Origin: a virus
Strand: one strand, 5' to 3'
DNA length: 40,807 nt
Virus record (IMG/VR): IMGVR_UViG_3300031687_001240
Coordinates: 1-40,807 of that record
Part shown: positions 11,675-40,807 of the stretch, piece by piece
Position numbering within the stretch: the stretch's first letter is position 1
Layout: each line of letters starts with the position of its first letter
Translations under genes and position numbers: made by a program
The notes under the pieces: generated by a model
Databases searched by the model: none
Seen by the model: the letters and a program-made list of their open reading frames with translations, nothing else
What the model was told of the DNA's origin: nothing

Positions 11675-11700
11675 TATCATAACCTTTATTTTATAGTATT

Positions 11701-27730: not shown

Positions 27731-27738
27731 TATTTATA
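27731..27738 (-). promoter_or_regulatory. T4-type late promoter box before gp13
   Basis: TATAAATA on the minus strand in the 29-bp gap between the 122-residue gene and gene 13. Confidence 0.75.
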
Positions 27739-27741
27739 GTA

Positions 27742-28110
27742 TTAAGCGTATGGACTAGTACCTAAAACTGAAGTATTCCATGCAGCTTTTAACGCAGCAA
27801 TATCGGCAGCATTATCAATTGCAGACGCAGCAGGTGCATTTCTTAGTGCAACTTTCTTTGTAACACTTGTGACTTTAGCGTCTGAATCAGCACTTTCTAA
27901 AGCTTTCATATATATTACATCTTCTGCAACAAGCAATGGAGCTCTTACTTCTCTTATCTTTTCTTTAAATATTACTTTTGCTCCAGCAATGTCTTCAGTG
28001 ATAGCTGTTTGTGCGCTATCAAATATCCATGCATTTCGAAAATGCCTGTCTGGTACTGATGCTGGTGCAATTGCAATTACACCGTCTTTGTCTTGAATCA
28101 TTGTAGTCAT
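27742..28110 (-). CDS. Conserved phage protein, possible tail assembly chaperone-like
   Basis: A 122-residue protein with the pattern VPDRHFRNAWIFDSAQTAIT, then DIAGAKVIFKEKIREVRAPL and an Ala-rich end. Similar proteins accompany tail or fibre genes of marine phages. The W-containing start and the RxxLL-like helix resemble the tail assembly chaperones at 31986 and 33759, but the C-terminal WP motif is missing. Function not proven. It is preceded by AAGGAGAGA and lies just before the gene 13 promoter. Confidence 0.6.
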   Translation of the reverse strand: MTTMIQDKDGVIAIAPASVPDRHFRNAWIFDSAQTAITEDIAGAKVIFKEKIREVRAPLLVAEDVIYMKALESADSDAKVTSVTKKVALRNAPAASAIDNAADIAALKAAWNTSVLGTSPYA

Positions 28111-28120
28111 TTCTCTCTCC

Positions 28121-28594
28121 TTATGCTACTTTTTGTTCTTGATTAATCTTCCATGAATTACGCCATGCTCTATGGCTTGGAAGGTTTTTCTTTTTACAAA
28201 TTACTAATCTTTTACGATTTGATTTATCATAATCTTTCCAGACGTGTTCTGGAATATCTTTCATTATTAAATATTCAATTGCTTCTTCTTCGGTCATCTT
28301 ACCAACTGGTTGCGTATTATGCAAAAGATAACCTCTTGTATGTTTCTTAAAATCTGGTTGTGCTTCATCTTTTTTTAGTTCCCAATAAGACTCTACTGGT
28401 GGTAGTATTCCACCTTGCATTGCGCATGCTAACCAGTTAGGATCTGGTATCGTAATCTTTGCTGGTTCATCAGGTTCGTTCGGATCTTCCCAAACAACTC
28501 TGTAATCGGTTTGTATAGGCTCAAGTTTTTGTTTTGCCCAGTTTAATCGGTCCCATAAATGTGTACCTTTAAATTCAGGTGTTTCAATTATCAT
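28121..28594 (-). CDS. Conserved hypothetical protein
   Basis: A 157-residue protein rich in Trp and Lys (MIIETPEFKGTHLWDRLNWA; DPNWLACAMQGGILPPVESY; PEHVWKDYDKSNRKRLVICK). I do not recognise its function. No catalytic motif or membrane segment is seen. It is located at the junction between the fibre array and the neck operon. An 8-codon mini-ORF (28591-28617) bridges it to the last fibre gene by ATGA overlaps at both ends. Confidence 0.65.
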   Translation of the reverse strand: MIIETPEFKGTHLWDRLNWAKQKLEPIQTDYRVVWEDPNEPDEPAKITIPDPNWLACAMQGGILPPVESYWELKKDEAQPDFKKHTRGYLLHNTQPVGKMTEEEAIEYLIMKDIPEHVWKDYDKSNRKRLVICKKKNLPSHRAWRNSWKINQEQKVA

Positions 28595-28617
28595 ATTTTT
28601 TCTCCATTATTAATCAT
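28591..28617 (-). other. 8-codon coupling mini-ORF
   Basis: ATG at 28617 overlaps the stop of the fibre gene ending at 28614, and is served by its GGAGA. It encodes MINNGEKI and stops at a TGA that overlaps the ATG of the next gene (28594). It contains GGAGAAAAAAT, the ribosome site of that gene. It may keep ribosomes moving through the gap or be a trimmed former gene. Confidence 0.4.
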
Positions 28618-29012
28618 GCTAAATCTCCGTGTATTAGGATGCTCTTATCTGTATCTCTTGCAGTACCTCCAGTATTGACAGATGACAATGTTGATGTCGT
28701 TGTTGTGTTAGCGAAATCAGGTACAATTTGTACAGTTACTCCCTCTGTATTATGGTCAGATAATGCTTGCGTAGAAAAGTTTATATTGCTCATAGCAGTC
28801 GTAAAGGTAAATGTTTCTACTCCTGTACCTCTATCTGCGACACTTGCCACATTAAAGCTATCAGCTAAAGCAGGTGTGCCAACACCAGAAGTATTAGCCC
28901 AAACCTTCGCCAACCCCTGCTGTAAGTTTGTATTATTCGAACCTTCACCACGAACATTAATCGAGTTTGCAGATGCTCTACCTTGTATAGTATCTATAAC
29001 TAATGTACTCAT
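28614..29012 (-). CDS. Small tail-fibre-like protein, QQGL/DSFN family
   Basis: A 132-residue member of the most frequent family in the array. Order of elements: N-terminus MSTLVIDTIQGR, GEGSNNTNLQQGLAKVW, an ADSFNVASV turn, a beta domain ending near ALSDH, and the C-terminus HGDLA. The DSFN-x-S..D..G..T pattern is a common C-terminal module of marine phage fibres. Here it is a stand-alone protein. The last codons (GGA GAT TTA GCA TGA) provide a ribosome site for the mini-ORF at 28617. Confidence 0.72.
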   Translation of the reverse strand: MSTLVIDTIQGRASANSINVRGEGSNNTNLQQGLAKVWANTSGVGTPALADSFNVASVADRGTGVETFTFTTAMSNINFSTQALSDHNTEGVTVQIVPDFANTTTTSTLSSVNTGGTARDTDKSILIHGDLA

Positions 29013-29449
29013 GCTAAGTCTCCAAATCTAGCAACACTAAAGGATGTATCTCTGTATGCACTACCAGCTTCATCATAAGTTCCAGTTCTACTTAAAGCAG
29101 TAGTATAGTGACTAGATTCGTACCAGTTAGTATTAGCAAAAGTTCTAATACCACCTGCAGCACCACAACTAGCAGCACTTACATAGTTAGCTGCCGTAAA
29201 GTTATTTGTAAAATTATGTACAAATTGTCCTGCACTTACGTCTGTATCAGAAGAATTATTAAATGAATCAACCGTTGCTTGAGCCACAACAGTACCCCAA
29301 GTCTTCGCTAACCCTTGTTGTAAATTAGTTGTGGCATTTCCTTCGCCTTGTATAGTAACCTGGCCAGCATTTGATATAATCATAGAGGTTGTATCAGAGT
29401 CATACTTAAGATTTGTAACTTCAATATTTGTTCCTACGATTGTACTCAT
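29009..29449 (-). CDS. Small tail-fibre-like protein, QQGL/DSFN family
   Basis: A 146-residue paralogue: MSTIVGTNIEVTNLKYDSDT, then QGEGNATTNLQQGLAKTW, VDSFNNSSDTDVSAG and the end RFGDLA. Two Cys lie in a variable middle (ASCGAAGG lies after AANYVSA). Its DNA shares an exact 40-nt block with the gene at 34720. Overlaps both neighbours by 4 nt (ATGA). Confidence 0.72.
   Translation of the reverse strand: MSTIVGTNIEVTNLKYDSDTTSMIISNAGQVTIQGEGNATTNLQQGLAKTWGTVVAQATVDSFNNSSDTDVSAGQFVHNFTNNFTAANYVSAASCGAAGGIRTFANTNWYESSHYTTALSRTGTYDEAGSAYRDTSFSVARFGDLA
29313..29352. repeat. 40-nt exact repeat, copy A (pairs with 35024-35063)
   Basis: This block encodes the QGEGNATTNLQQG segment of the gene at 29009-29449. 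It is identical over 40 nt to 35024-35063 in the gene at 34720-35169. Part of it (22 nt) also occurs at 29768-29789. Confidence 0.85.
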
Positions 29450-29883
29450 GCTAAATCTCCTGTATACATTAATTCTACATCTTGACAGTCTGCTAGTGTT
29501 CCATTTGAATTAATTGCTACAGCAACCAACTGAAGTGCTGTTGTTTTAGCTGCATGATTTGATCCACTTCTTTCATAATTATTACCACCTGACCATGCTG
29601 AACTTGCCATACAATAATTAATTGAAGCAAAATTAGTTGTTCTTGTAACAGTTACTTTTCCTGTAGCAGCATCTGCAATAGATGAAGTATTAAAACTATC
29701 GTCTACACTATTTTCTGTATTTAAATCTAAATGACACCATTGTTTTACCAACCCTTGCTTTAGATTTGTTGTGGCATTTCCTTCGCCTTTAACTAAAGTT
29801 ACATCGAGCGCATCACCACTATTAATCGTAATAGTATTTCCGCCTCTTGCTGCAATCTTATTTACATTAATTTGGCCGGTCAT
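29446..29883 (-). CDS. Small tail-fibre-like protein, QQGL/DSFN family
   Basis: A 145-residue paralogue. It carries GEGNATTNLKQGLVKQW, DDSFNTSSIADAATGKVTVT, then a variable beta domain (CMASSAWSGGNNYERSG) and the C-terminus YTGDLA. The start MTGQINVNKIAARGGNTI corresponds to the MST..V..I pattern of its neighbours. It shares a 22-nt exact block with two other copies. Confidence 0.72.
   Translation of the reverse strand: MTGQINVNKIAARGGNTITINSGDALDVTLVKGEGNATTNLKQGLVKQWCHLDLNTENSVDDSFNTSSIADAATGKVTVTRTTNFASINYCMASSAWSGGNNYERSGSNHAAKTTALQLVAVAINSNGTLADCQDVELMYTGDLA
29768..29789. repeat. 22-nt exact repeat, third copy
   Basis: Identical over 22 nt to the right part of the 40-nt block at 29313-29352. 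It encodes the GEGNATTN segment of the gene at 29446-29883. Confidence 0.8.
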
Positions 29884-30347
29884 GCAAGATCTCCTGCTAT
29901 TACACAGGTAACTTCTGCATTATCTGTAGCACTACTGTTAACAGAAAAAGACCTTAGTTCTCGTACTGTAGTTGACCTTAATCTCAATCCTAGCATTCTA
30001 TTACCTCCATCTTGACTGTTTTCACCACTTCCACCACCTGTAGCGTAATCAGAATTAGCCATATTACTAGCAAAGGTTACTGTATACATACCAGTGTTAT
30101 TATCAGCAAGACTAGATACGTTAAATGAGTCACGACTTGCTATAGTTCCTGTGCCATTAAAGTTAATCCAAGATTTATTTAACCCTTGTTGTAAATTAGT
30201 TGTACCGGTACCTTCACCTTTAACAGTGATATTACCAGAATTTATAGTCATATTATTTGCAGCCGTCTGACCTTCTAAAGTGTTAGTCTTAATCTTATAC
30301 TGGCCTGCAACGTTTTTAATCTCATCTACTTTTATTTGACTTGGCAT
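29880..30347 (-). CDS. Small tail-fibre-like protein, QQGL/DSFN family
   Basis: A 155-residue paralogue: MPSQIKVDEIKNVAGQYKIK, GEGTGTTNLQQGLNKSW, SRDSFNVSSLADNNTGMYTV, a Gly-rich loop (TGGGSGENSQDGGN) and the end IAGDLA. The gene is preceded by a 64-bp gap that holds a relic of another fibre gene (30355-30414) rather than a direct overlap with the next gene. Confidence 0.72.
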   Translation of the reverse strand: MPSQIKVDEIKNVAGQYKIKTNTLEGQTAANNMTINSGNITVKGEGTGTTNLQQGLNKSWINFNGTGTIASRDSFNVSSLADNNTGMYTVTFASNMANSDYATGGGSGENSQDGGNRMLGLRLRSTTVRELRSFSVNSSATDNAEVTCVIAGDLA

Positions 30348-30354
30348 TATCTTA

Positions 30355-30414
30355 CTAGCCTTTAATTTTCATAATTGTTAAACATAAATCAGTACTTTTA
30401 TAAATTGATGTCAT
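30355..30414 (-). pseudogene. 19-codon relic of a MEIKG-family fibre gene
   Basis: An ATG at 30414 overlaps the stop of the C1q-like gene at the normal junction (GGAGATAGCATGA) and runs 19 codons: MTSIYKSTDLCLTIMKIKG, then TAG. The end LCLTIMKIKG matches the C-termini of the second fibre family (VVIAMEIKG, ITLMEIAG). This looks like a deletion that joined a gene's start to its last codons. Confidence 0.55.
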
Positions 30415-30923
30415 GCTATCTCCTGCAATAAATGATATGAACCTGCTGTATACACATCTCCAGTTGGCATGTCATTAGAATTTCTATAATAACCTGCATT
30501 ATTACCATTTCTAAAACCAACAACTTGTCCTGCATCTAAGTAAAAAGATGTAGATTGATCGACATTTCTGCTAGCACTCCAAGTAAAAGTATACTGGTCT
30601 GTGCCATCAACATTTAATCTATAATCAGTAGATATACTTGTAGATGCTACAATTGTTTTCATATGTATTTGATAAATGCCACTAACTGGAGCTGTATATT
30701 TATAAGTTGTTGTGTTATAATCAGCATTACCAGTACCTTTGTGCTGATAAACTGCATTAAAAGGTAAATAATCACCAGTACTTCCTGTAACATAACCAGA
30801 AGAACCTTTGGCATAGACAAACACATAACTTGATGACTTTAAAGATACCACACCGCCACTACTAACAGTCATTGCTGAAGTTCCATTAGAGTGTGTTATG
30901 TTTTCTACTGCTAAAGTACTCAT
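30411..30923 (-). CDS. Fibre-array protein with C1q/TNF-like jelly-roll domain
   Basis: A 170-residue protein. After an array-type N-terminus (MSTLAVENITHSNGTSAMTV) comes a C1q-like domain. Its hallmarks are YKYTAPVSGIYQIHMKTIVA (about 74-93), LNVDGTDQYTF, and the final strands YTAGSYHLLQEIA. C1q-type jelly rolls form trimers and often bind sugars or surfaces, so this is a candidate receptor-binding tip (inference). The stop leads into the relic gene at 30355-30414. Confidence 0.72.
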   Translation of the reverse strand: MSTLAVENITHSNGTSAMTVSSGGVVSLKSSSYVFVYAKGSSGYVTGSTGDYLPFNAVYQHKGTGNADYNTTTYKYTAPVSGIYQIHMKTIVASTSISTDYRLNVDGTDQYTFTWSASRNVDQSTSFYLDAGQVVGFRNGNNAGYYRNSNDMPTGDVYTAGSYHLLQEIA

Positions 30924-31090
30924 ACGACTACCAACCTTCCTCCACTGTTTACTGTCAGTGTTACTCCACTCGCAACCGTAATTGGTCCTGCTATCATGGC
31001 GTTCTCTGTAGCCTCGATAATCGTGTTTGCAGTTACAGTTTTCAGTGTAATTTTAAATCCTATACCTTTTCCTATTCTACTTAATGCCAT
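30920..31090 (-). CDS. 56-residue fibre-stem-like protein
   Basis: A short gene below common ORF cutoffs. The ATG at 31090 overlaps the upstream stop (TAATG) behind GGAGATTTAGC, and the TGA overlaps the next ATG (ATGA). The protein starts MALSRIGKGIGFKITLKTVT and ends with the array-wide stem motif ENAMIAGPITVASGVTLTVN followed by SGGRLVVV. Paralogous ends occur at 33553, 35169, 37214 and 39867. Both junctions and the motif support a real gene. Confidence 0.72.
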   Translation of the reverse strand: MALSRIGKGIGFKITLKTVTANTIIEATENAMIAGPITVASGVTLTVNSGGRLVVV

Positions 31091-31539
31091 TATGCTAAAT
31101 CTCCATCTATACTTGTATCAAACTGAGGACTGTCTTTAGCATTTCCGTTATTATGATAATTAACAGAGCCAGTTCTATATATTGTTGTAGTTCTTGCTGA
31201 ATCAGATCTAAAAAAACCTATTTGGCCCCAAGCTGCAACATATAATGAACCTATCGTATTTGCATAATGCGCATTGGCCATAGGATTTGTTAGAGAATTA
31301 GTGAAATCTCCTACGCCATTATCTGTAATTGATGCAGCATTGAACGAATCATTAACTGCGCCAGTGCCCATATGTACAGAAATCCAATGATTACTTAACC
31401 CCTGCTGTAAACTAGTTGTAGCGGTACCTTCACCTTGTATAATTATAGATCCTGCTGTGTCAATTCCACTTAACTGATTGACCTTAACGTTATTGCCACC
31501 TGCGGTATTTTTAAACTTATCAGCAAATATTGTACTCAT
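31090..31539 (-). CDS. Small tail-fibre-like protein, QQGL/DSFN family
   Basis: A 149-residue paralogue: MSTIFADKFKNTAGGNNVKV, IIQGEGTATTSLQQGLSNHW, NDSFNAASITDNGVGDF, then MANAHYANTI and the end SIDGDLA. It shares an exact block of about 32 nt with the next gene (31536), so one probably arose by duplication or gene conversion. The GDLA codons carry the ribosome site of the 56-residue gene. Confidence 0.72.
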   Translation of the reverse strand: MSTIFADKFKNTAGGNNVKVNQLSGIDTAGSIIIQGEGTATTSLQQGLSNHWISVHMGTGAVNDSFNAASITDNGVGDFTNSLTNPMANAHYANTIGSLYVAAWGQIGFFRSDSARTTTIYRTGSVNYHNNGNAKDSPQFDTSIDGDLA

Positions 31540-31979
31540 GCTAAATCTCCACTTACCTTAACTCCACAATCTCTGTCTACATAAGCAGAACCAGTATATA
31601 TATTAAATTGAAATGAACCAGTAGCAAGGGATTGAGCCATACAAGTGTTAGCTTCCCCTTGATTTTCCATGCCCGTAAGAGAATATCCAGCATTTGCCAT
31701 ATCATTGTTAATAAAGAAAGTTGTTCTTCCTGCAGCATCATCTCTAACACTACTAACATTAAAAGAATCTAAAACGGTAACAGACAAGTCTATTCCTGCC
31801 CACATCTTAATTAATCCTTGCTGTAAACTAGTTGTAGCGGTACCTTCACCCTGTACAGTTATAGAAGTTCCACCTAAAATTTTATTGAGCGTAATATTGC
31901 CTGTACTTGCATCAAGTGATATAACATCACTATCACTGTTAGGTATCTGAATTTTATTTACTTTTAATGTGCTTACCAT
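31536..31979 (-). CDS. Small tail-fibre-like protein, QQGL/DSFN family
   Basis: A 147-residue paralogue with VSTLKVNKIQIPNSDSDVIS near the start, VQGEGTATTSLQQGLIKMW, LDSFNVSSVRDDAAGRTTFF and the C-terminus VKVSGDLA. It lies directly downstream of the chaperone-like gene at 31986 with a 6-nt gap. Confidence 0.72.
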   Translation of the reverse strand: MVSTLKVNKIQIPNSDSDVISLDASTGNITLNKILGGTSITVQGEGTATTSLQQGLIKMWAGIDLSVTVLDSFNVSSVRDDAAGRTTFFINNDMANAGYSLTGMENQGEANTCMAQSLATGSFQFNIYTGSAYVDRDCGVKVSGDLA

Positions 31980-31985
31980 TTGAAC

Positions 31986-32273
31986 CTACGGTTTTGTTGG
32001 CCAATTAATATTACTTAGTGCGTCATCACTTGGCGTTTGACTTGTTATATCTCTAAGAGCTTGTCTATATGCTGCCCAGGCATCTGACATTGTAACATCA
32101 GAATTTCCCATATAATCAGTGTCAATTAAGAGTACATTACGTTTATCTCTAATTGTTTCCATTCTTCGTGCAGGAGCAGAGTCTGTCCATGCTTGTTCTT
32201 CTGTGTCTCTTGCTGTTTCTTCTTCTGCAGTAAACTGGATTCTGTCTCCATTTACCATCTTAAATCTTGGCAT
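31986..32273 (-). CDS. Phage tail assembly chaperone-like protein
   Basis: A 95-residue protein with the pattern of small phage tail assembly chaperones: RNVLLIDTDYM..SDVTMSDAWAAYRQALRDIT and the end INWPTKP. Such proteins are encoded beside tail fibres and assist fibre folding or attachment. Chaperones are not virion parts in most cases. GGAGATAAAAATG follows the upstream stop. A second chaperone-like gene lies at 33759. Confidence 0.75.
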   Translation of the reverse strand: MPRFKMVNGDRIQFTAEEETARDTEEQAWTDSAPARRMETIRDKRNVLLIDTDYMGNSDVTMSDAWAAYRQALRDITSQTPSDDALSNINWPTKP

Positions 32274-32282
32274 TTTTATCTC

Positions 32283-32894
32283 CTATTTAATTCCATATAA
32301 TTTTACTGTGCCAGCAGCAATGTTTCCGCTCGCAAAATACAATCTTATTCCGCTCATTACGTTTCCTACATAAGCAGGTTTTTGAATTCCTCCAAATGAT
32401 AAATGGTCATGGTTCGCGCTGCCAGAAAGTCCATTACAACTACCAGCTGCAGAAGTAGGTCTAGTAGATGAGTTTCTATTGTATATATGAAACCCTCCAG
32501 TTATTCCCTCGCCAGCTGCATTTCCAGTACCATATCTCTCAAATCTGATAAATATATCGTCTCCTTCAGAAACTGAAGGTGAAGAACCTTTAGTAACAAC
32601 TTCAAAACCAAAATGGTTGGCAGTTATTAAGGTACCGCCTACAAACATTTTAGCAAAAAATTGAATATTGTCATTTGCCGCCACTGCGTCAAAGCTTATA
32701 TAATAGGTGTCATAAGTTTCACTAAATCCTGTAATATCAAATTGTGCAACGTTAGTTCCTACACTTTCTGATATCTTGCTCATGGCCAGTCCGTTGCCAG
32801 ATACATTGCCATCTGACGCTATAGTAAAAGCCGTGGTGTCAGAATCAAACATAATGTTCTGTGTTTCGATATTTGTTACTACTAATCTACTCAT
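32283..32894 (-). CDS. Small fibre-like protein, YDTYY/YGIK family
   Basis: A 203-residue beta-rich protein: MSRLVVTNIETQNIMFDSDT, ITGFSETYDTYYISFDAVAA, GNAAGEGITGGFHIYNRNSS and the end AAGTVKLYGIK. It is paralogous to the next gene upstream (32894), sharing the YDTY, G.GAGEGI and LYG elements. It probably forms a fibre tip or decoration domain (inference). Confidence 0.68.
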   Translation of the reverse strand: MSRLVVTNIETQNIMFDSDTTAFTIASDGNVSGNGLAMSKISESVGTNVAQFDITGFSETYDTYYISFDAVAANDNIQFFAKMFVGGTLITANHFGFEVVTKGSSPSVSEGDDIFIRFERYGTGNAAGEGITGGFHIYNRNSSTRPTSAAGSCNGLSGSANHDHLSFGGIQKPAYVGNVMSGIRLYFASGNIAAGTVKLYGIK

Positions 32895-33553
32895 TATTTT
32901 ACTACTCCATAAATTGTAACAAATCCGCTTGCTATATTATGTGTACCATCATCAAAAAAGAACTTTAATCCATTAAGAACTTTTGCTCTTTGTGTAGATT
33001 TATAAGCACCGCCAAATACCTGATGAGTAGGAACTGGATCAGTAGTAAAGCTAGTTGAATGACCAGATATACATGCAGCTCTTGTAGTTGAGTTAACATT
33101 AAATAAAGTGAACTCTCCAGATATACCTTCTCCAGCTCCATTACCAATATTGTATTTATTATGAACACACATAACATTTGTGCTATCACTAACTCTAGTG
33201 CTACCTCCATCTAAAGGAAAACATTCAAATCCGTAATTACTACCGGTATCAACTGTACCACCTACTACTGCTTGATTATATAAAGTAGCTGTTTCGCCTG
33301 CAGCTATTAAATCATATACAAATTTATATGTATCATAAGTAGAATTAATATAAGTTGAATTAACAATAAACTCTGCTACATTTGTAATATTAAACGTAGC
33401 TAATTTAACAATTGCACCAACATTGTCACCACTAACAGTTCCACTGAAAGTGACATTTTTTGGAATCGTAATATTACCACTAGTGTCAAAGCTCATAGTA
33501 TCACTATCGAGTCCAGTTCCTCTAATTTTATCTACTTTTAAAATACTTGCCAT
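32894..33553 (-). CDS. Small fibre-like protein, YDTYY/YGIK family
   Basis: A 219-residue paralogue of 32283: MASILKVDKIRGTGLDSDTM, STYDTYKFVYDLIAAGETAT, GNGAGEGISGEFTLFNVNST and the end ASGFVTIYGVVK. The N-terminus also matches the MST..V..I starts of the QQGL family, so N-terminal and body modules have been combined. It overlaps both neighbours by one base (TAATG). Confidence 0.68.
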   Translation of the reverse strand: MASILKVDKIRGTGLDSDTMSFDTSGNITIPKNVTFSGTVSGDNVGAIVKLATFNITNVAEFIVNSTYINSTYDTYKFVYDLIAAGETATLYNQAVVGGTVDTGSNYGFECFPLDGGSTRVSDSTNVMCVHNKYNIGNGAGEGISGEFTLFNVNSTTRAACISGHSTSFTTDPVPTHQVFGGAYKSTQRAKVLNGLKFFFDDGTHNIASGFVTIYGVVK

Positions 33554-33759
33554 TATACTATACTCAAGTTACCTTGTAATGTTAATGTTTGACCACTATC
33601 AATTGAAAGAGGTCCTGCAACCATTGCATTTTTATCTGCAGCAATTGTTATGCTTGTGTCTAAGTTACTGTCATTCAAGCGAAAGACAACATTTGATCCT
33701 GTCGGAAATGTCTTTTCCGTAAGAAAACCAGATTTAGCAGTCTCTCTCGCTCTAGTCAT
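33553..33759 (-). CDS. 68-residue fibre-stem-like protein
   Basis: A short protein (MTRARETAKSGFLTEKTFPT...) consisting mainly of the stem motif: KNAMVAGPLSIDSGQTLTLQ then GNLSIV. The same ending closes the longer proteins at 35169, 37214 and 39867. It may supply a trimerising stem in trans, or be what is left of a longer gene. The reading frame is intact with TAATG overlaps on both sides. Confidence 0.65.
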   Translation of the reverse strand: MTRARETAKSGFLTEKTFPTGSNVVFRLNDSNLDTSITIAADKNAMVAGPLSIDSGQTLTLQGNLSIV

Positions 33760-34127
33760 TATCTACTTGGCCATGTTACAGATGAAGCAACTAAGTCGCC
33801 TAATGCATCTGTAGTAGGCGATGCGCCTGCAGGTAAGTCTCTTAATGCTTGCATATAAGTTGCGAGTTCACTAGCTACAGCTTCACCTTTGGAATGCGCT
33901 TTAGTTACTTCCCAATCAAGTCCTGCGAGCTTAGCATCTCTTTCAACTCTTAAGAGTCTTGCTGCTTCTGCATTATCCATAGCTGTAATTTTTGTAGTAA
34001 TTTCTGACTCAGATGGAGCAGTTTGACTTGCGTCTAACCATTCTAATCCTGAGAATTCATTACCTCTTAGTACCCATTCTGCGCCTGGCTTTAAAGCAGA
34101 TAAGGCGCCGGCGATATCGTATTTCAT
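33759..34127 (-). CDS. Phage tail assembly chaperone-like protein
   Basis: A 122-residue protein. After an N-terminal part (MKYDIAGALSALKPGAEWVL), the C-terminal half reads RVERDAKLAGLDWEVTKAHS, ELATYMQALRDLPAGA and VTWPSR. This is the R.xxLxxxDW...YrQALRDl...WP pattern of tail assembly chaperones. It is the first gene after a late promoter, with AAAGGAG before the ATG, so chaperones and fibre genes are made together. Confidence 0.75.
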   Translation of the reverse strand: MKYDIAGALSALKPGAEWVLRGNEFSGLEWLDASQTAPSESEITTKITAMDNAEAARLLRVERDAKLAGLDWEVTKAHSKGEAVASELATYMQALRDLPAGASPTTDALGDLVASSVTWPSR

Positions 34128-34149
34128 TTAAGTTCTCCTTTAATATGAC

Positions 34150-34157
34150 TATTTATA
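34150..34157 (-). promoter_or_regulatory. T4-type late promoter box within the fibre array
   Basis: TATAAATA on the minus strand in the 71-bp gap 34128-34198, upstream of the chaperone-like gene at 33759. The same gap holds a vestigial fibre C-terminus (34165-34188). Confidence 0.75.
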
Positions 34158-34164
34158 CTTGTTA

Positions 34165-34188
34165 TCATACTTTAATTTCCATTACAGT
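34165..34188 (-). pseudogene. Vestigial MEIKV C-terminus of a lost fibre gene
   Basis: Just after the stop of the gene ending at 34199, another frame reads TVMEIKV then TGA. This matches the T(V/L)MEI(A/K)G ends of the MEIAG family. No start codon or body remains. The upstream gene's own junction (GGAGATTGCAGC) now leads into stops instead of an ATG. Confidence 0.45.
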
Positions 34189-34198
34189 TTTTGTTTTA

Positions 34199-34720
34199 TT
34201 AAGCTGCAATCTCCTGAAGTATGATTGTACTGTCGACACCGTAAACTTGAACATATACAGATGAAGCATTACTAGCTGATTTAAATTGAGTTTTATAAGT
34301 TGTAGAAGTGGTTGTGTTTGGAGTATCTAATATACTTGCACCAACTGTTCCAATACTCATAGTTGCAGCAGTACCAGTTCCATTGTCGCCTCCAGCTCTT
34401 TTTGCCATTGCAGATATAGAAGTAGAACCTCTAAAAATTTGTATTTCACAACCTGCTGCAGCAGAACCATCTTTGTAAACACCATTTTGCAAAACGGTCA
34501 CTAATATTTTATTACTAGCTGAAGTTGGAGTAATAGTACCAGTTAATCCAGTATCTATCAAAGTGCCACTAGTGCTAGTTACTTGTGTAGTGTGTTTGGC
34601 CGTAATTGTCTGCACTACACTACCTGTAGGTAAGTTTGCTATTGTCATTGCTGATGTGACTGAAGTCAATGGTAGTTCATCTAAGTCAACTAATCTTGGT
34701 TTTGCTCTTTGTATTGGCAT
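34199..34720 (-). CDS. Small fibre-like protein, MEIAG/ITPTSxSNKILV family
   Basis: A 173-residue member of the second fibre family. Elements: MPIQRAKPRLVDLDELPLTS, the PTGSVVQTITAKHTTQVTST start of the beta domain, DTGLTGTITPTSASNKILVT, IFRGSTSIS, LDTPNTTTSTTYKTQFKS, and the end STIILQEIAA. This fold is widespread at fibre ends of marine phages. The start overlaps the preceding stop by one base. Confidence 0.72.
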   Translation of the reverse strand: MPIQRAKPRLVDLDELPLTSVTSAMTIANLPTGSVVQTITAKHTTQVTSTSGTLIDTGLTGTITPTSASNKILVTVLQNGVYKDGSAAAGCEIQIFRGSTSISAMAKRAGGDNGTGTAATMSIGTVGASILDTPNTTTSTTYKTQFKSASNASSVYVQVYGVDSTIILQEIAA

Positions 34721-35169
34721 TATGCTAGGTCTCCTGCTACTTGTAACATTGTTGGGTCACTATCAGCAAAGGAAGCGTTATTAGCATAAATAACAGTATT
34801 AACTTTTGATGTATCTGAAGTACCTTTAGTAATACCCATATATCTACCACTAGATCCTATATCACCAGTAACACTTATTGAATAATGTGCGTTGGCCATT
34901 GTATTTGTGAATGTTGAAGTGTAACGAGCTACTCCAACATCTACAATCCCACTAATACCAAATGAATCATTAGTAGTCAATGTACTTGCATCTCCATCTA
35001 ACCTGTTCCACGCTTTAATTAATCCTTGTTGTAAATTAGTTGTGGCATTTCCTTCGCCTTGTACAGTAGTTGTACCTGTTTTTATAGTTAAATTACCACC
35101 ACTACTAACAGTCATAGCACTTGTTCCGTTTTGATGTTGTAATTCTGTAAGTCCTAGTATTCCTGCCAT
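34720..35169 (-). CDS. Small tail-fibre-like protein, QQGL/DSFN family
   Basis: A 149-residue paralogue: MAGILGLTELQHQNGTSAMT, VQGEGNATTNLQQGLIKAW, TNDSFGISGIVDVGVARYTS and the end QVAGDLA. It shares an exact 40-nt block with 29009-29449 although the genes are 5.7 kb apart, pointing to recent exchange. The N-terminal HQNGTSAMTVSSGG resembles that of the C1q-like protein, again showing module mixing. Confidence 0.72.
   Translation of the reverse strand: MAGILGLTELQHQNGTSAMTVSSGGNLTIKTGTTTVQGEGNATTNLQQGLIKAWNRLDGDASTLTTNDSFGISGIVDVGVARYTSTFTNTMANAHYSISVTGDIGSSGRYMGITKGTSDTSKVNTVIYANNASFADSDPTMLQVAGDLA
35024..35063. repeat. 40-nt exact repeat, copy B
   Basis: Identical over 40 nt to 29313-29352, about 5.7 kb away, in the same reading frame of a paralogous fibre gene. 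Flanking sequence diverges on both sides. Confidence 0.85.
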
Positions 35170-35933
35170 TATATCACCGTAAAGTTTCCGTTAACTGTTA
35201 TGTTAACACCTGAGTCTATTGTTATTGGTCCTATCACCGATGCGTTCTTTCCCGAATCCACTGTAATACTACTTATAATATTTTGTGTGTTAACTCGTAT
35301 TGGTACATTATTTATTACTATTGATGAATCTAGATTTGAAACTTTTACAGATGCATCTGCAAGTTTACCCGATGTTACTGATCCATCGACTGGTACAAAT
35401 ACTGCACTCTTAATTCCAAGATCTACAACTCTTAATACTGAATTAGAATCAAGTGCTGAATCAAACGATATAGTGTTACTGCTTAGAGTAAAGTTAGACT
35501 GTGCTTGTATTACGCCATCTATTGAAACTAATAAAGCGCCTTTTGCTGATGGCGTAAATGATAATGTACAACTATCTGATTCTCCAAGAAATATTCTTGT
35601 AAATTCGTCAAATGTTTTTAAATTTGCTGCTAGCTTATCTGCAGTAATACTTCCTGTTCCTACTGCATCACCAGCATTACCACCAATTGATATTGCAAAA
35701 CATGAATCACCTGAATCTGGTGCTGTAGTAAATACTAAATTGTTACCACCTGCTTGTAATACAAAATCTGAAGTTGGTTCTTGTATAACACCATTTAATG
35801 ACACTATAAGTTGATTAACATCACCAACTTGGTGTCCTAGTGGAAAGGAAATAGAAGATGCATTAAACGCCCAAGACGTAACATCTACTTTCTTAAACTC
35901 TCCAATGTTTGGTGCTCTACCTAGATATGCCAT
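35169..35933 (-). CDS. Fibre-like protein with two SxxGVIQ domains and stem motif
   Basis: A 254-residue protein beginning MAYLGRAPNIGEFKKVD. It carries two copies of a domain with (S-L-N/S-I-D)GVIQ (QLIVSLNGVIQEPTSDFVLQ and ALLVSIDGVIQAQSNFTLSS). A GSVTSGKLADASV segment follows, then the stem ending SVIGPITIDSGVNITVNGNF. The opening and ending match 37214 and 39867. Related domains are typical of marine T4-like structural proteins. Confidence 0.72.
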   Translation of the reverse strand: MAYLGRAPNIGEFKKVDVTSWAFNASSISFPLGHQVGDVNQLIVSLNGVIQEPTSDFVLQAGGNNLVFTTAPDSGDSCFAISIGGNAGDAVGTGSITADKLAANLKTFDEFTRIFLGESDSCTLSFTPSAKGALLVSIDGVIQAQSNFTLSSNTISFDSALDSNSVLRVVDLGIKSAVFVPVDGSVTSGKLADASVKVSNLDSSIVINNVPIRVNTQNIISSITVDSGKNASVIGPITIDSGVNITVNGNFTVI

Positions 35934-35934
35934 A

Positions 35935-36663
35935 TTATTTTATCACCTTATATAAAGTATATCCTTGATTAGTAAATTCAGATCCGTCATTTTTATTTAG
36001 TTTTATTTGATCTAATCCTATAGCTGTACTACACATTGCAGAACCAGTAGAATTGTAAGTATATGCATCATTATGTCTTTTTTCCATACCATGTTGCCAA
36101 TTAAATCTTGGAAATTTAGATGTGCCTACTGTGTGATACATATCTAAAACTAAATGAAAAGTTTCAAAATCATCAGAACCATCTCCCGCGTTTGCTTCGT
36201 TAAATTCAATATAAGATGCACCATTTACGTCACCTTTTTGAGCATTTCCTGCACCACTACCATTATTGTAGTTGTATGTATACATATATCTGTAGTCTGT
36301 GCTACCAGTATCAAAAGCATTGTCCGCTGTGTTTCTAACAACCATTTTCCACCTACCACTAGTTCCTGTTTCTGATTTTAAGTTTATGATTAATTTAAGA
36401 TATTCAAAGTCTGTTGTTTCTGGTAAAGATATAACTAATGCAGTTAAATCTGTTGTAACACTAGTGACTTTAGATACCAATTCCATATTTCCACCACCAG
36501 CACCACTTACAGTTCCAGTCAAAGCATAATCCGCAGTTAGATCTAACTCTGAATTACCTATCGCATTTGCAGGTATTTTAGCAGAAGTAACTGCATTTGC
36601 AGCTATCTTGGATGTAGTTACTGCATTATCTTGAAAACTTGCTGCTCTTAACTTAGTTGTCAT
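35935..36663 (-). CDS. Fibre-like protein with collagen-like heptad start, YKVIK family
   Basis: A 242-residue protein. The N-terminus has repeating NAVTTSKIAANAVTSAKIPA units, a common fibre-shaft element. A beta-rich body (TTDFEYLKLIINLKSETGTS, GSGAGNAQKGDVNG) ends in GYTLYKVIK. The ending resembles 32283 (VKLYGIK) and 32894 (VTIYGVVK), so I place it in the same family. The AAGGTG in the last codons provides the next gene's ribosome site. Confidence 0.7.
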   Translation of the reverse strand: MTTKLRAASFQDNAVTTSKIAANAVTSAKIPANAIGNSELDLTADYALTGTVSGAGGGNMELVSKVTSVTTDLTALVISLPETTDFEYLKLIINLKSETGTSGRWKMVVRNTADNAFDTGSTDYRYMYTYNYNNGSGAGNAQKGDVNGASYIEFNEANAGDGSDDFETFHLVLDMYHTVGTSKFPRFNWQHGMEKRHNDAYTYNSTGSAMCSTAIGLDQIKLNKNDGSEFTNQGYTLYKVIK

Positions 36664-37217
36664 CCTGCAATCTCCATTACAGTTATTGTTGATACGCCAC
36701 TTACTGTATTTGCATTGCCTGATTGCAAAGTATTTACTCTATTTAAATATAGAACTACGCCTGTGCTCCACTGTAACTTGTAAGTAACTGCACTTGTTGT
36801 ACTAACTGCTGTATCTAAAAGTTGAAAATTATCACACATTAATCGATACGCATTATCTACTCCTTGTAAACCAAAAGTGGCTCTTGTATCTCCAGAAGAT
36901 GTGTTAGGACCAATCGCTATATTACTACTATCTCTTAATATTCTTACTCCTCCATAAGGATTTGCAGCGCTTCCCCAAGACAATGATGTACTAACGAGTA
37001 TCTTTGATGATGTTGAACTTGGTGTAATTGAGACAGACATTCCTGGAATATCTGTAAAAGTTCGGCTGTTAAAAGCGGAACTAGCTGTAGCGCTTATTGA
37101 TTGTTTAACTTGCAAAATTCCTCCAGCTGGTACAAATCCCGATGGAGTATGACCTGATGCAAGACTCACAGTGGTTCCAGTCGCTGCCTGTATTGTATTT
37201 GTCTTTAACGTACTCAC
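36660..37217 (-). CDS. Small fibre-like protein, MEIAG family, GTG start
   Basis: A 185-residue member of the MEIAG family: STLKTNTIQAATGTTVSLAS, PAGGILQVKQSISATASSAF, ISITPSSTSSKILV-type core (SVSITPSSTSSKILVSTSLS) and the end TITVMEIAG. I chose the GTG at 37217, which overlaps the upstream TGA (GTGA) and yields the usual MSTLK opening. The ATG at 37229 would add four residues but has no ribosome site. Confidence 0.68.
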   Translation of the reverse strand: MSTLKTNTIQAATGTTVSLASGHTPSGFVPAGGILQVKQSISATASSAFNSRTFTDIPGMSVSITPSSTSSKILVSTSLSWGSAANPYGGVRILRDSSNIAIGPNTSSGDTRATFGLQGVDNAYRLMCDNFQLLDTAVSTTSAVTYKLQWSTGVVLYLNRVNTLQSGNANTVSGVSTITVMEIAG

Positions 37218-37768
37218 ACTATACTCCATTCACCATTAACTGTTACTGTAAAACCAGAATCAATTTGTACTGGACCTGCGCTCATACCGTTTGTTGCAGA
37301 ATCAATTAAAATATTTTCGGCTATATTATTTGCGTTTGTTCGTATTATTGAATTACTCCCCAACCATGGTGCATTACTATATTTAATAGCCTGACTTCCT
37401 GTAGGTTGAGCGGAATTATTAAGTGTTATCGTTGGAGCAGTAACTCCGCCTGTAAAGATATCACCAGATCTTTTAGCAGCTCCTCCTACGTCAGTAACTG
37501 TAACTTGTGAAACCTCAACAATTTCTATAATGTCATTAAGATAAGCTGCTGATGCTAATACTACATTAGTGCCATTAGTTGTAAAGTCACCATCAGGAGA
37601 TAATTTAGCTCCATTTAAATATACATGACTTGCGCTATCAATTGCAGATAACGATACACCATTTGCATCATTCCCGCTGAAAGATGCTTGTCCTTCGGTT
37701 GCAGTAAATCTAAATCTTGTATTTCTTAGCTCTACAGTTTGATTTGCATTTGATCCTAAGTACGCCAT
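37214..37768 (-). CDS. Fibre-like protein with stem motif, MAYLG family
   Basis: A 184-residue protein: MAYLGSNANQTVELRNTRFR, FTATEGQASFSGNDANGV, VYLNGAKLSPDGDFTTNGTN, TLNNSAQPTGSQAIKY and the stem ending GMSAGPVQIDSGFTVTVNGE then WSIV. It is related to 35169 and 39867 in its first and last segments. Overlaps the previous gene by one base. Confidence 0.7.
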   Translation of the reverse strand: MAYLGSNANQTVELRNTRFRFTATEGQASFSGNDANGVSLSAIDSASHVYLNGAKLSPDGDFTTNGTNVVLASAAYLNDIIEIVEVSQVTVTDVGGAAKRSGDIFTGGVTAPTITLNNSAQPTGSQAIKYSNAPWLGSNSIIRTNANNIAENILIDSATNGMSAGPVQIDSGFTVTVNGEWSIV

Positions 37769-38250
37769 TATGCAATGTCTCCATGTATTGTGGTGTAACC
37801 ATACTTTAAATCACCAGTAGCTGTACCACTTTTATCTGTTCTAACTTTATATGCAGTTGTTGTGGGTGCTACTTCATTTCCAGATGAGTTATCAGAATGT
37901 AATTGACCACCTGCTGCATCACCTTGGCCATTAGCATCAAAATTATTTGAATTAGTCATTATATAATTTATATCAGAATAAGCTGTTGTTATTGTTACTG
38001 TATATTCTCCTGCTGCATCATCTGCTACACTACTTAAATTCCATGATTTTATTATAGCAGGTGTTTTGTGGTTAAAGTGTAAAGCATGAGATGCAATTCC
38101 TAATTGTAAAACTGATGTCACACTACCTGTTTGAACATTAATTACATCTGCAGTCGTCTTACCTTTAATAGTGTCAATCTTAACAGTATCGTTAAATGTA
38201 ATATCACTACCAATTTTAGCCTCGATCTCATTTACGACTACACGGCTCAT
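37768..38250 (-). CDS. Small fibre-like protein, divergent DSFN family
   Basis: A 160-residue protein with the family layout but altered motifs: MSRVVVNEIEAKIGSDITFN, VQTGSVTSVLQLGIASH (in place of QGEG..TTNLQQGL), KSWNLSSVADDAAGEYTVTI (DSFN replaced by KSWN), and the end YTTIHGDIA. It is the most diverged copy of the QQGL/DSFN family in the window. Confidence 0.7.
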   Translation of the reverse strand: MSRVVVNEIEAKIGSDITFNDTVKIDTIKGKTTADVINVQTGSVTSVLQLGIASHALHFNHKTPAIIKSWNLSSVADDAAGEYTVTITTAYSDINYIMTNSNNFDANGQGDAAGGQLHSDNSSGNEVAPTTTAYKVRTDKSGTATGDLKYGYTTIHGDIA

Positions 38251-38792
38251 CCTGCGATCTCCATTAAAGTAATTCTGCTAATATTGTTACCAGTGCCACC
38301 TTTTTGACAGTGTAAAACCGCAGAATTATTAGAAAGTTTTGCATTCATTCTCATTTTATAAGTAAACGAACTCGTTGTATTAGGTGAATGTAAAAAATTA
38401 ATTGGATGTTTAAATGCCATGGCATATGCTTCATTAATTCTATAACCTTCATTGTCAGCACTAGTGCCATCTAAAATATTATTACTGCCATCACAAACTG
38501 CAAAGTTAAATTGCATACTTCCATTACTCCCCCCAGCTGCATAAAATGATAGATAACCAGTTACGAGTATTTTACTACTAGATGAACTTGGTGTAATCGA
38601 AGCAGATAAACCTGTATCAGCAAATGTTGTGGTACTACCACTCTGTGATACTGCACTTGTTGCTGTTGCATGAACAACTTGAATTGCATGCCCGGGTGCA
38701 TTTAATACATGTCCACTCGCAATCTGTACAGTTGTAGGTGTAGAAGAAGTTGCTAGTCCTTGAATTTGTGATACACTCAGTATCCCAGCCAT
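38247..38792 (-). CDS. Small fibre-like protein, MEIAG family
   Basis: A 181-residue member of the MEIAG family: MAGILSVSQIQGLATSSTPT, APGHAIQVVHATATSAVSQS, ADTGLSASITPSSSSSKILV, HSPNTTSSFTYKMRMNA and the end ISRITLMEIAG. The GGAGATCGCAGG of the MEIAG codons serves the next ATG (ATGA overlap). Confidence 0.72.
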   Translation of the reverse strand: MAGILSVSQIQGLATSSTPTTVQIASGHVLNAPGHAIQVVHATATSAVSQSGSTTTFADTGLSASITPSSSSSKILVTGYLSFYAAGGSNGSMQFNFAVCDGSNNILDGTSADNEGYRINEAYAMAFKHPINFLHSPNTTSSFTYKMRMNAKLSNNSAVLHCQKGGTGNNISRITLMEIAG

Positions 38793-39121
38793 TATGTAAT
38801 CTCCAAAATACTTAATATTACGTCGACGGAAGCTGCTGTACTTGAACTTACTTTAATAATATCTGCAGCATTCATAACCACTTTTTGATCTCCACCTACT
38901 GCAACTAATGAACTTCCAATTGGTATTGGAGCATCTTTAACTAAGAAACAACTATCTCCACCATTATTTAATAATGTGACATCGGCAGTGATTGCAGAAG
39001 ATGTTTTGTTAGAAAGGTTTAATCCTATTATTGTTGTAGCAGTATTACTTGGACATGTATATACGGCAGAATCAGCAATTCCAATATTTTTTTTTGTTTG
39101 TAGTTTAAATAAGTTTGCCAT
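38792..39121 (-). CDS. Small virion-like protein, unknown family
   Basis: A 109-residue beta-rich protein (MANLFKLQTKKNIGIADSAV; TATTIIGLNLSNKTSSAITA; SLVAVGGDQKVVMNAADIIK). It resembles small structural proteins of marine T4-like phages found near tail and neck genes. It has no array motif except the end LEIT, whose codons (GGAGATTACATAATG) make the next ribosome site. Function unknown. Confidence 0.62.
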   Translation of the reverse strand: MANLFKLQTKKNIGIADSAVYTCPSNTATTIIGLNLSNKTSSAITADVTLLNNGGDSCFLVKDAPIPIGSSLVAVGGDQKVVMNAADIIKVSSSTAASVDVILSILEIT

Positions 39122-39124
39122 ATG

Positions 39125-39301
39125 TTATCCTAACGCTATTGCTAATGCTACAGCCGTTCCAGCTGGATCACCGAGTGGAGATACAATTAACACGTCGGCC
39201 GAATCAAGTATTCGGTCGTGCGCTTTGCCATTAATCGTAATGTTTTGATTTACTATAATTCCGTTCTTAACAACGAAATCTTTTTGTTGTGCTGTAGGCA
39301 T
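39125..39301 (-). CDS. 58-residue fibre-array protein
   Basis: A gene shorter than usual ORF cutoffs. It starts at ATG 39301 with GGGGAGAG about 7 nt upstream and is the first gene after a late promoter (39332-39339). The protein is MPTAQQKDFVVKNGIIVNQN followed by ITINGKAHDRILDSAD and ends in a small hydrophobic Ala/Gly segment (AVALAIALG). The VVKNGI.V...I.ING pattern is typical of marine phage structural proteins. It is followed 3 nt later by the 109-residue gene. The ribosome site, promoter and spacing support it. Confidence 0.68.
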   Translation of the reverse strand: MPTAQQKDFVVKNGIIVNQNITINGKAHDRILDSADVLIVSPLGDPAGTAVALAIALG

Positions 39302-39331
39302 CGGTTCACTCTCCCCAATGGATTATAATTC

Positions 39332-39339
39332 TATTTATA
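39332..39339 (-). promoter_or_regulatory. T4-type late promoter box before the 58-residue gene
   Basis: TATAAATA on the minus strand in the 56-bp gap between the genes at 39125 and 39358. The ATG is 30 nt downstream. Confidence 0.75.
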
Positions 39340-39357
39340 CAAGTTACAGTTTAAACA

Positions 39358-39858
39358 TTAGCCTTTAATCTCCATAGCTATTACAACCATAGAATCTTTT
39401 GCATCAGGCTCATCATTGATTCTAAAATCTCCATCATTTTGAGTTGCACATTGCAATTTATATGTTACTGAAGAAGCAGTTGAAGGTGAATCTAAATATT
39501 GAATAGCTATTGGACATGGAACCCAAATCGACCCATTTGTATTTGTACTATAACCATATCTAGGTATATACCTTACTTCTGTTGAACCTCGAAATATTTT
39601 AAATCTAATAGAATTATTCGTATTATTAGCCATACCACCACAATTCCAAGAAATAAAAATCTTACTTGATGTACTTGATGGTGTTATAGCTATAGATGTT
39701 CCATTAACATCACCAAAGCTTGTATTTGGCGTGGTGTTTGATGATTGCAATTGAGCCGCAACTGTCTGTATCACACTACCAGCAGGCATACCTGTTAAAA
39801 AGCTACTCCCTTGAACTAAGTTTGCGGTTGGTACTTTTTTTACTCTCGTTAATGCCAT
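39358..39858 (-). CDS. Small fibre-like protein, MEIKG family
   Basis: A 166-residue member of the MEIAG/MEIKG family: MALTRVKKVPTANLVQGSSF, MPAGSVIQTVAAQLQSSNTT, GTSIAITPSSTSSKIFISWN, IFRGSTEV, LDSPSTASSVTYKLQC, and the end SMVVIAMEIKG. It is the intact gene whose ending best matches the two vestigial C-termini found elsewhere in the array. TAGGAGAAGAC precedes the ATG. Confidence 0.72.
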   Translation of the reverse strand: MALTRVKKVPTANLVQGSSFLTGMPAGSVIQTVAAQLQSSNTTPNTSFGDVNGTSIAITPSSTSSKIFISWNCGGMANNTNNSIRFKIFRGSTEVRYIPRYGYSTNTNGSIWVPCPIAIQYLDSPSTASSVTYKLQCATQNDGDFRINDEPDAKDSMVVIAMEIKG

Positions 39859-39866
39859 GTCTTCTC

Positions 39867-40337
39867 CTATACTATCGACATCGATCCGTTAATGACTACT
39901 GAAACTCCTGAGTCAATAGTTATAGGTCCTGCGACCATTGCATTATCATTTGAGTCTAAAGTAAATCCTGTTGATATACTATTTCGATTTTTTCTTACTG
40001 GTGTATTTGTAATTCCTATTGCATCATTTAACTTAGATGCAGTTATCACATTATCTGAAACTGTGCTTGTACTGTGCGCTTCACCTAATGCAGTTATAAA
40101 ATCAATAGTATCACTTGAATCAATTGCTTCACTAAATGTTATAGTGGTTCCTGTCACAGTATAAGCAGAGTTTGGTGCTTGAATAACACCATTAATAGAT
40201 ACAATTAGTTGTTCTGCAATTAAATTTGGTTGTGGTATATTATTAATGTTTAGTGTATATGATGAGTCACTTGTACCAGTGATAGCATCCATTCTTTGAT
40301 ATACACCAAACTGTGGAGACTTACCGAGAGTACTCAT
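39867..40337 (-). CDS. Fibre-like protein with SINGVIQ domain and stem motif
   Basis: A 156-residue relative of 35169 and 37214: MSTLGKSPQFGVYQRMDAIT, QLIVSINGVIQAPNSAYTVT, DNVITASKLNDAIGITNTPV, and the stem ending NAMVAGPITIDSGVSVVING then SMSIV. It has one GVIQ domain where 35169 has two, so domain number varies by duplication. Confidence 0.72.
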   Translation of the reverse strand: MSTLGKSPQFGVYQRMDAITGTSDSSYTLNINNIPQPNLIAEQLIVSINGVIQAPNSAYTVTGTTITFSEAIDSSDTIDFITALGEAHSTSTVSDNVITASKLNDAIGITNTPVRKNRNSISTGFTLDSNDNAMVAGPITIDSGVSVVINGSMSIV

Positions 40338-40807
40338 TGTGCGATCTCCATAACAGTTAACGTTGTCAAGATATTGTAACCTGCCCAGTAAGCTATTCCA
40401 CCACCTTCTTGCTTAACGACAACATTATAAGTTACTGCTGAAGCTGTAGCTGGTGCATGTAAAAGTGAGGCAGATAAAGCTGATACAAGTTGACCTGAAT
40501 TTGAATGATTCATTGCCATTCCCATAGTTCCTGTAGCTAATAAAGTTCCACCAGCAAGGACTGTTCCAGCATTAGTTGAACTTGAAGGATTAATAGAGAC
40601 GTTAGCAACGGCTTTTTTAGTATTTGTTCCATTTGTTCCATAGCCATTAAAACTAACTAAAAATTTACTTGAGCTACTAAATGGAGTAAATGTTAAAAAT
40701 AAACCAGTACTTTTATAAGTTGTTGTTGTATTTGATACTGTTGCTGTACTGGTATGTTGATATACTTGTATCACTTGGCCCGGTGCTACTAAAGATCCTG
40801 CAGCTCC
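40334..40807 (-). CDS. Fibre-like protein, MEIAG family, N-terminus outside window
   Basis: At least 157 codons are open to the right edge, so the true start is outside. An internal GTG at 40774 would begin within the conserved segment. The in-frame upstream residues GAAGSLVAPGQVIQVYQHTS match the PAGSVIQTV and PTGSVVQTI segments that lie 20-35 residues into the paralogues, so the frame continues. The core is FTPFSSSSKFLVSFNGYG and LHAPATASAVTYNVVVK, and the end LTVMEIAQ. Confidence 0.72.
   Translation of the reverse strand, partial: GAAGSLVAPGQVIQVYQHTSTATVSNTTTTYKSTGLFLTFTPFSSSSKFLVSFNGYGTNGTNTKKAVANVSINPSSSTNAGTVLAGGTLLATGTMGMAMNHSNSGQLVSALSASLLHAPATASAVTYNVVVKQEGGGIAYWAGYNILTTLTVMEIAQ

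Follow-up and report, generated by a model that had tools for sequence, protein, structure and literature searches.

A row of small tail-fibre tip genes with position-specific tags and exchangeable ends in a T4-like marine myovirus

The DNA studied here, a 40.8 kb linear viral contig (IMG/VR record IMGVR_UViG_3300031687_001240; the whole stretch is called the window), carries at positions 28614-40807 an array of 26 same-strand open reading frames (ORFs), which tile the region on the minus strand and nearly all abut or overlap by 4 nt. The array consists of 17 tip genes, namely, eight of the GDLA (QQGL) family, five of the MEIAG family, three jelly-roll-like and one C1q-like, and of nine supporting genes, namely, five stems, two chaperones, and two small conserved proteins of 58 and 109 residues. 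An earlier sequence-only reading had described about 25 small genes in this region; its copy counts agree with ours, except that its three LYG proteins comprise two clearly related members and a third (g10, 35935-36663) that is weakly related. Tips are 130-250 residues long, contain no predicted enzyme domain, and begin with a tag of 25-45 residues. Among related phages the tag is conserved at each position and the remainder of the tip is replaced. The genes (g01 to g26) and associated features are as follows, with related contigs denoted by L numbers:

40334..40807, minus: g01, MEIAG tip truncated at the contig end (185 residues with tag MSSLTVQNIQGSAS in L096)
39867..40337, minus: g02, stem with NGVIQ domain, 85-92% identity in closer relatives
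39358..39858, minus: g03, MEIAG tip, slot tag MALTRVKKVPTANL
39332..39339, minus: TATAAATA, late promoter motif of T4 type, about 30 nt ahead of g04; position kept in several relatives
39125..39301, minus: g04, conserved 58-residue protein
38792..39121, minus: g05, conserved 109-residue protein (PHROG 1276/26609, function unknown in PHROG)
38247..38792, minus: g06, MEIAG tip
37768..38250, minus: g07, GDLA tip
37214..37768, minus: g08, stem, 70-86% identity over its full length in relatives
36660..37229, minus: g09, MEIAG tip, whose AlphaFold model shows an extended N-terminus and a TNF/C1q-like knob
35935..36663, minus: g10, jelly-roll-like tip (LYK)
35169..35933, minus: g11, stem containing two repeats of NGVIQ type (PHROG 18673, tail fiber)
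34720..35169, minus: g12, GDLA tip
34199..34720, minus: g13, MEIAG tip
34150..34157, minus: TATAAATA, late promoter motif located about 25-30 nt ahead of g14, as also in L085, L088, L102, L106, and L122
33759..34127, minus: g14, fibre chaperone (Phage_tail_APC)
33553..33759, minus: g15, short stem of 68 residues, 90-100% identity in most relatives
32894..33553, minus: g16, LYG jelly-roll-like tip, tag MASILKVDKIRGTG; C-terminal part exchanged in relatives
32283..32894, minus: g17, LYG jelly-roll-like tip
31986..32273, minus: g18, fibre-assembly chaperone
31536..31979, minus: g19, GDLA tip; the same tag bears MEIAG or other tips in relatives
31090..31539, minus: g20, GDLA tip; tag sits between g12 and g13 in most relatives
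30920..31090, minus: g21, short stem of 56 residues, 92-96% identity in relatives
30411..30923, minus: g22, C1q-like tip; similar C-terminal domain behind another tag in L104
29880..30347, minus: g23, GDLA tip, modelled with AlphaFold
29446..29883, minus: g24, GDLA tip; tag sits between g12 and g13 in most relatives
29009..29449, minus: g25, GDLA tip
28614..29012, minus: g26, GDLA tip
28121..28594, minus: conserved module accessory protein, homologue of HMO-2011 gp36
27742..28110, minus: conserved module accessory protein (PHROG 20196), homologue of HMO-2011 gp35

The array was compared among 24 related contigs, in which slots were assigned by tag and identity was taken over the first 28 and the last 60 residues. 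Tip slots had a median identity of 72% at the start vs 22% at the end, stems 71% and 74%, and chaperones 86% and 77%, with unrelated slots at 22% and 17%; stems and chaperones are thus conserved along their whole length and tips only at the N-terminus. Gene order is kept in many independent contigs; in the comparison between related phages, as suggested by the sequence-only reading, tip ends are replaced within this order. As slots had been assigned by tag, genes were re-placed only by their order after the stems, and the syntenic gene was then the best tag match in 69% of 1613 comparisons vs 10% by chance, and the best match over the C-terminal 60 residues in 22%. Taking blindly the gene directly after the g02, g08, g15, or g21 stem gave tag identities of 31-52%, lower than for slot-assigned genes owing to the admixture of insertions, alternative starts, and distant contigs. 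Several tags invariably keep the same stem (g16, 13/13; g19, 15/15; g10, g23, and g26, 8/8 each). Within one phage the tags are mutually unlike, with a median identity of 21-25%, as for random pairs, and a maximum of 54%, but across phages they are position-specific, which points to one dedicated site per gene. A conserved N-terminus combined with a variable C-terminus is general among phage receptor-binding proteins.

The tip variation seen is whole-domain replacement, and tips move between slots as well as between phages. Tip domains that are 79-97% identical occur behind unrelated tags in different phages, e.g., the L105 tip at g19 shares 97% identity with the tip behind the g24 tag in L006, other pairs being 93, 88, 81, and 79% identical. 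At the g19 address itself, the GDLA tip of the window is replaced by a MEIAG tip in L085/L105 and by different ones in L100 and L102, and the families recur across slots (MEIAG in seven, GDLA in nine). The break between tag and tip falls near residues 35-50 at both the protein and the DNA level, and past this point the DNA of the best pair is about 93% identical. Between L119:1548-2108 and L087:10480-11013, tip and downstream sequence are nearly identical, the tag having been replaced and the tip retained. Larger units occur as well: the g21-g26 block is wholly absent from L100 and L104 while its neighbours remain, and two kinds of tip are paired with a partner gene in different slots. Larger tips ending in AEL or similar are paired with a 56-67-residue protein ending in a DAD/EAD-type motif (in the window strain, L085, L106, L112, and gp28/gp27 of the Puniceispirillum phage HMO-2011), and tips ending in IIRY are paired with a HYAKV protein (in L085, L087, and L090):

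L085:3126-4465, L106:1867-3262, L096:1618-3237: AEL tip with 56-67-residue partner
L085:14165-15893, L087:7902-9454, L090:8644-10001: IIRY tip with HYAKV partner

The ends of the tips carry a second signal. The GDLA end is coded GGA-GAY-YTN-GCN, and its terminal Gly is GGA in 66/67 cases vs 778/2111 (37%) elsewhere in the same genes (p 6e-27); likewise, the Glu of terminal MEIA is GAG in 58/66 vs 104/432 (24%; p 9e-24). A Shine-Dalgarno core lies within the upstream gene for 59 of 66 GDLA tips and 52 of 64 MEIAG tips, and jelly-roll tips mostly have none embedded (1/18). The conserved C-terminal motifs GDLA and MEIA therefore encode the Shine-Dalgarno sequence of the next gene. The median ratio of nonsynonymous to synonymous substitution rates (dN/dS) is 0.185 for alignable tips (18 pairs, not independent), 0.121 for stems, and 0.137 for chaperones; tips are real proteins under purifying selection, and the array is not a chance arrangement, as shown by the gene order preserved across independent contigs and by dN/dS values of about 0.1-0.2. 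The late promoter motif TATAAATA occurs 11 times in the window, in all cases on the coding strand, a total not above chance; three copies (27731-27738, 34150-34157, and 39332-39339) lie about 25-32 nt before gp13, g14, and g04, a placement shared with relatives, and a late sigma factor that fits this motif is encoded at 11090-11680. The three conserved copies split the array and the neck genes into late transcription units.

Profile searches bear out the proposal that these modules form the C-terminal domains of long fibres in other phages. The MEIAG profile matches residues 466-658, i.e., the last 193, of the 658-residue phage protein orf22 of 9efk (E 3.7e-30), a solved structure with 18 chains, and MEIAG proteins match PHROG 6942 at positions 533-707 of 708. 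All eight GDLA proteins match PHROG 11355 'tail fiber' (E 7e-8 to 2e-17). Among the remaining genes, g14 passes the Pfam gathering threshold for Phage_tail_APC (PF16778; 43.7 vs 26.6 bits) and g18 matches PHROG tail-fibre assembly (E 2e-14), whereas the C1q match of g22 (PF00386; E 0.0012, 19.4 bits) stays below the gathering value of 23.7 bits, for which reason it is referred to only as C1q-like. Two of the five stem/GVIQ-type proteins are just 56-68 residues long. The g02 NGVIQ-stem profile matches the N-terminal repeats of the capsule depolymerase 9k4a (E 1.8e-8), a suggestive tie at the sequence level; PDB profile searches with GDLA, jelly-roll, g05-like, and g08-stem alignments gave nothing credible, and that with stem g11 gave only DAHP synthases, at chance level.

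According to AlphaFold monomer models, two tip families have lectin- or tailspike-like folds. The MEIAG model (g09; predicted local distance difference test (pLDDT) 83) resembles the TNF-like lectins PLTL and BC2L-C, and also Pgp3, its likeness to the lambda central fibre being weaker. The fold is shared with PLTL and the BC2L-C N-terminal domain at probability 1.00 and a template modelling (TM) score of up to 0.73 on the target, but with just 13-15% identity, the likeness resting on the predicted fold. The GDLA model (g23; pLDDT 82, tip >90, tag extended) has weak PDB likeness to tailspike C-termini and matches many phage fibre proteins in the viral library.

Taken together, the array probably encodes the tips of a multi-slot receptor-binding apparatus, with a separate site for each tip and with recombination as the means of swapping tip domains. 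The conserved stems, expressed late from T4-type promoters together with the chaperones, would form docking points on the tail, and each small tip gene would give rise to one separate, probably trimeric, lectin-like tip. The first 25-45 residues would serve as an address tag matching just a single site, and the C-terminal 100-170 residues would bind the cell surface. Different tips would then be shown together, one kind per address, instead of competing for one socket. Host range could be retuned by recombination at the tag/tip junction, with tip domains swapped between phages and between addresses, and a swapped-in tip would keep the coupled operon translated because the GDLA/MEIA motifs also encode the Shine-Dalgarno sequence of the next gene. 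A bolder form of this proposal, which is plausible but put forward tentatively, is an addressable plug-in system with at least 20 tips displayed at once, one per tag-specified address, each tip end carrying its neighbour's ribosome site; phages of unrelated tail types would have this system in common, and its parts would circulate as a shared pool among abundant ocean phages.

Several points weigh against one dedicated site per tip. The tags share a loose consensus, MSxLxVxxI, and partial cross-docking between them is possible. L119 has a g13-type tag at the g03 position, and in the window the tags of g20 (31090-31539) and g24 (29446-29883) stand under stems that differ from those in most relatives; the pairing of a tag with one stem thus has exceptions. 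The assignment of slots by the tag itself is a bias, which the order-only ranking partly removes. The PDB matches of the GDLA tip are weak (best E 0.012), the AlphaFold models are monomers, and it is from the genes that we infer incorporation of the tips into virions. Apart from HMO-2011 and the named phages, all sequences are metagenome contigs, for which chimeric assembly is possible; counting against this worry, most exchanged tips differ by several per cent.

Four other readings were weighed. The sequence-only reading had suggested a combinatorial surface, in which many tips would compete for few identical sockets and each virion would carry a random mixture. The weak common pattern of the tags, the recurrence of tip families in many slots, and the g20/g24 tags found under different stems speak for it. 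This reading is nonetheless unlikely, because paralogous tags would be expected to stay alike if they competed for one socket, and they are as dissimilar within a phage as random pairs while the same address is kept across phages. Somewhat less likely still is that the small proteins are stacked as successive segments of one or a few long fibres, of which only the last would be a true tip. Both stems and tags resemble fibre-shaft sequence, and the tip families close long fibres in other phages; against this, almost every gene ends in a closing tip domain and not in shaft, the g21-g26 block can be missing as a whole while its neighbours persist, and tip families replace each other freely.

It is improbable that most genes are a store of spare tips for recombination with a longer fibre and not virion parts themselves. 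The reservoir for tip exchange contained in the sequence-only reading holds in so far as tips clearly move between slots and phages, but a mere reservoir is at odds with the purifying selection on tips, the translation coupling through embedded ribosome sites and stop/start overlaps, and the conserved late promoter motifs, as well as with the adjacent chaperones and the own address tag of nearly all tips. Breakage of one long gene by sequencing errors or degeneration, to which the few 56-68-residue genes that look like bare fibre ends and the g11 stem split into two ORFs in L109 (L109:8019-8805) might point, is next to impossible given dN/dS well below 1, gene boundaries shared by many contigs of different sample origin, and an isolated phage genome with the same layout. 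The conserved boundaries refute a broken single fibre gene, as the sequence-only reading had anticipated; its wording of a split tail fibre is only a guess on origin, and nothing shows derivation from one split fibre.

The boundaries proposed earlier, 28614-40807, are real but incomplete, as g01 is cut by the contig end and the array runs further upstream, forming the downstream part of a module of about 21 kb and 38 genes (as seen in L085 joined to L105). There, the module spans from after a fibre-like gene ending in LREIRTPA to the gp36/gp35 homologues before gp13, so that it includes 28121-28594 and 27742-28110. The upstream continuation is seen in L096, which is nearly identical to the window, and in L085, L087, and L091, and a fibre-like gene of >850 residues precedes the array start in L085/L087. 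Downstream of the two accessory genes follow T4-type neck, terminase, sheath, portal, and head genes. The gp14-like head-closure protein (25840-26955) has 371 residues in the window vs 293 in L011 and L025; the insert at about residues 188-266 matches baseplate wedge proteins and looks like a surface domain added on the neck.

By terminase, the nearest named phage is 'Phage C48C1' (69% identity). Phage C48C1 (L002/L003) has long fibre-region genes here, one of 10 kb, in place of the long array. Among gp13-relative contigs with at least 4.5 kb upstream, most bear long fibres at this place (up to 1854 residues), the full array being found only in L005 and L006 and a partial one in L029/L030. No photosystem reaction-centre genes were found in the eight related contigs searched, one of them 123 kb long, and nothing thus indicates a cyanophage; when stem g08 was run against bacterial and archaeal genomes, only three matches came up, all confined to the last 51 residues, with no host lead.

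If this reading is correct, it bears on how abundant ocean phages keep pace with variable host surfaces. Two unrelated phage groups (the second, that of HMO-2011, is described below) seem to manage their receptor-binding diversity like a list of parts, of which the addresses are fixed and the ends can be exchanged; as the second is an abundant marine group, piecewise change of host range may be widespread. The layout offers testable rules as to address residues, tip residues, swap points, and genes that form one unit, and thereby a way to read host-range change from metagenomes, and it explains many 'hypothetical' or 'tail fiber' genes of marine viruses.

The sequence-only reading knew of no described system of this kind. 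However, phage HMO-2011 (NC_021864) carries an annotated cluster, gp27-gp42, with the same kinds of genes in a one-strand row, namely, a 108-residue g05-like protein, g08-like and g21-like stems, GDLA, MEIAG, and C1q tips, chaperones, and the gp36/gp35 accessory pair. The array belongs to this type of small tail-fibre cluster by its gene row, its accessory pair (the last 100 residues of which are 77-81% identical in the best pairs from the two virus groups), and its conserved tags with variable tips. With HMO-2011 stem gp33, 80 related podovirus contigs were found, in which the tags of tips gp40, 37, 34, 32, 29, and 28 are 62-86% conserved vs 22-25% at the end, gp41, 33, 35, and 36 keep their C-terminal end conserved as well, and 32/141 near-identical tip pairs carry different tags. 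The cluster itself is thus not new. It differs in having about 15 genes in a 55 kb podovirus vs about 38 in a T4-like myovirus, and its annotation says no more than tail-fibre proteins; in Roseobacter phage CRP-1, long fibre genes occupy the corresponding place. The g23 tag of the window (MPSQIKVDEIKNVA) is present in the HMO-type contig L238, and podoviruses and T4-like myoviruses may exchange the module or parts of it.

A further known system is the host recognition cluster of pelagimyophages and cyanomyophages, a hypervariable island with tail fibres before the neck genes (PMC7029224). The array stands shortly before the neck genes gp13/gp14 (head-tail adaptor, head closure) in a T4-like genome, as this cluster does, and is part of the host-recognition island of a T4-like marine myovirus. 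At its other end the known cluster starts after the VrlC gene; the gene ahead of the array in L085/L087 is the fibre-like one of >850 residues, and no VrlC was identified. The accessible part of PMC7029224 treats the cluster at the island level, and an array of single-domain tips, tags, and tip cassettes is not described there. Known already are thus this island and the deposited HMO-2011 cluster; in the literature searched, of which coverage was partial, no paper on this array or on structure 9efk was found, nor an earlier description of the address and exchangeable-tip logic, i.e., a many-address layout with inter-slot exchange and embedded ribosome sites.

Lastly, branched receptor-binding complexes are formed by the four tailspikes of CBA120 (PMC7506556) and the fourteen fibres of phiKp24 (PMC9700779), in which several different receptor-binding proteins per virion are docked via their N-terminal regions onto partners. 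Likewise, the window encodes several receptor-binding-type proteins per genome (17 tip genes); the parts of CBA120 and phiKp24 are long trimeric enzymes with T4gp10-like docking domains, compared with which those of the array are far smaller. Most simply, the tips would sit on an apparatus that is branched or has multiple sites, each tip having an address of its own, which would be like CBA120 and phiKp24 in principle.

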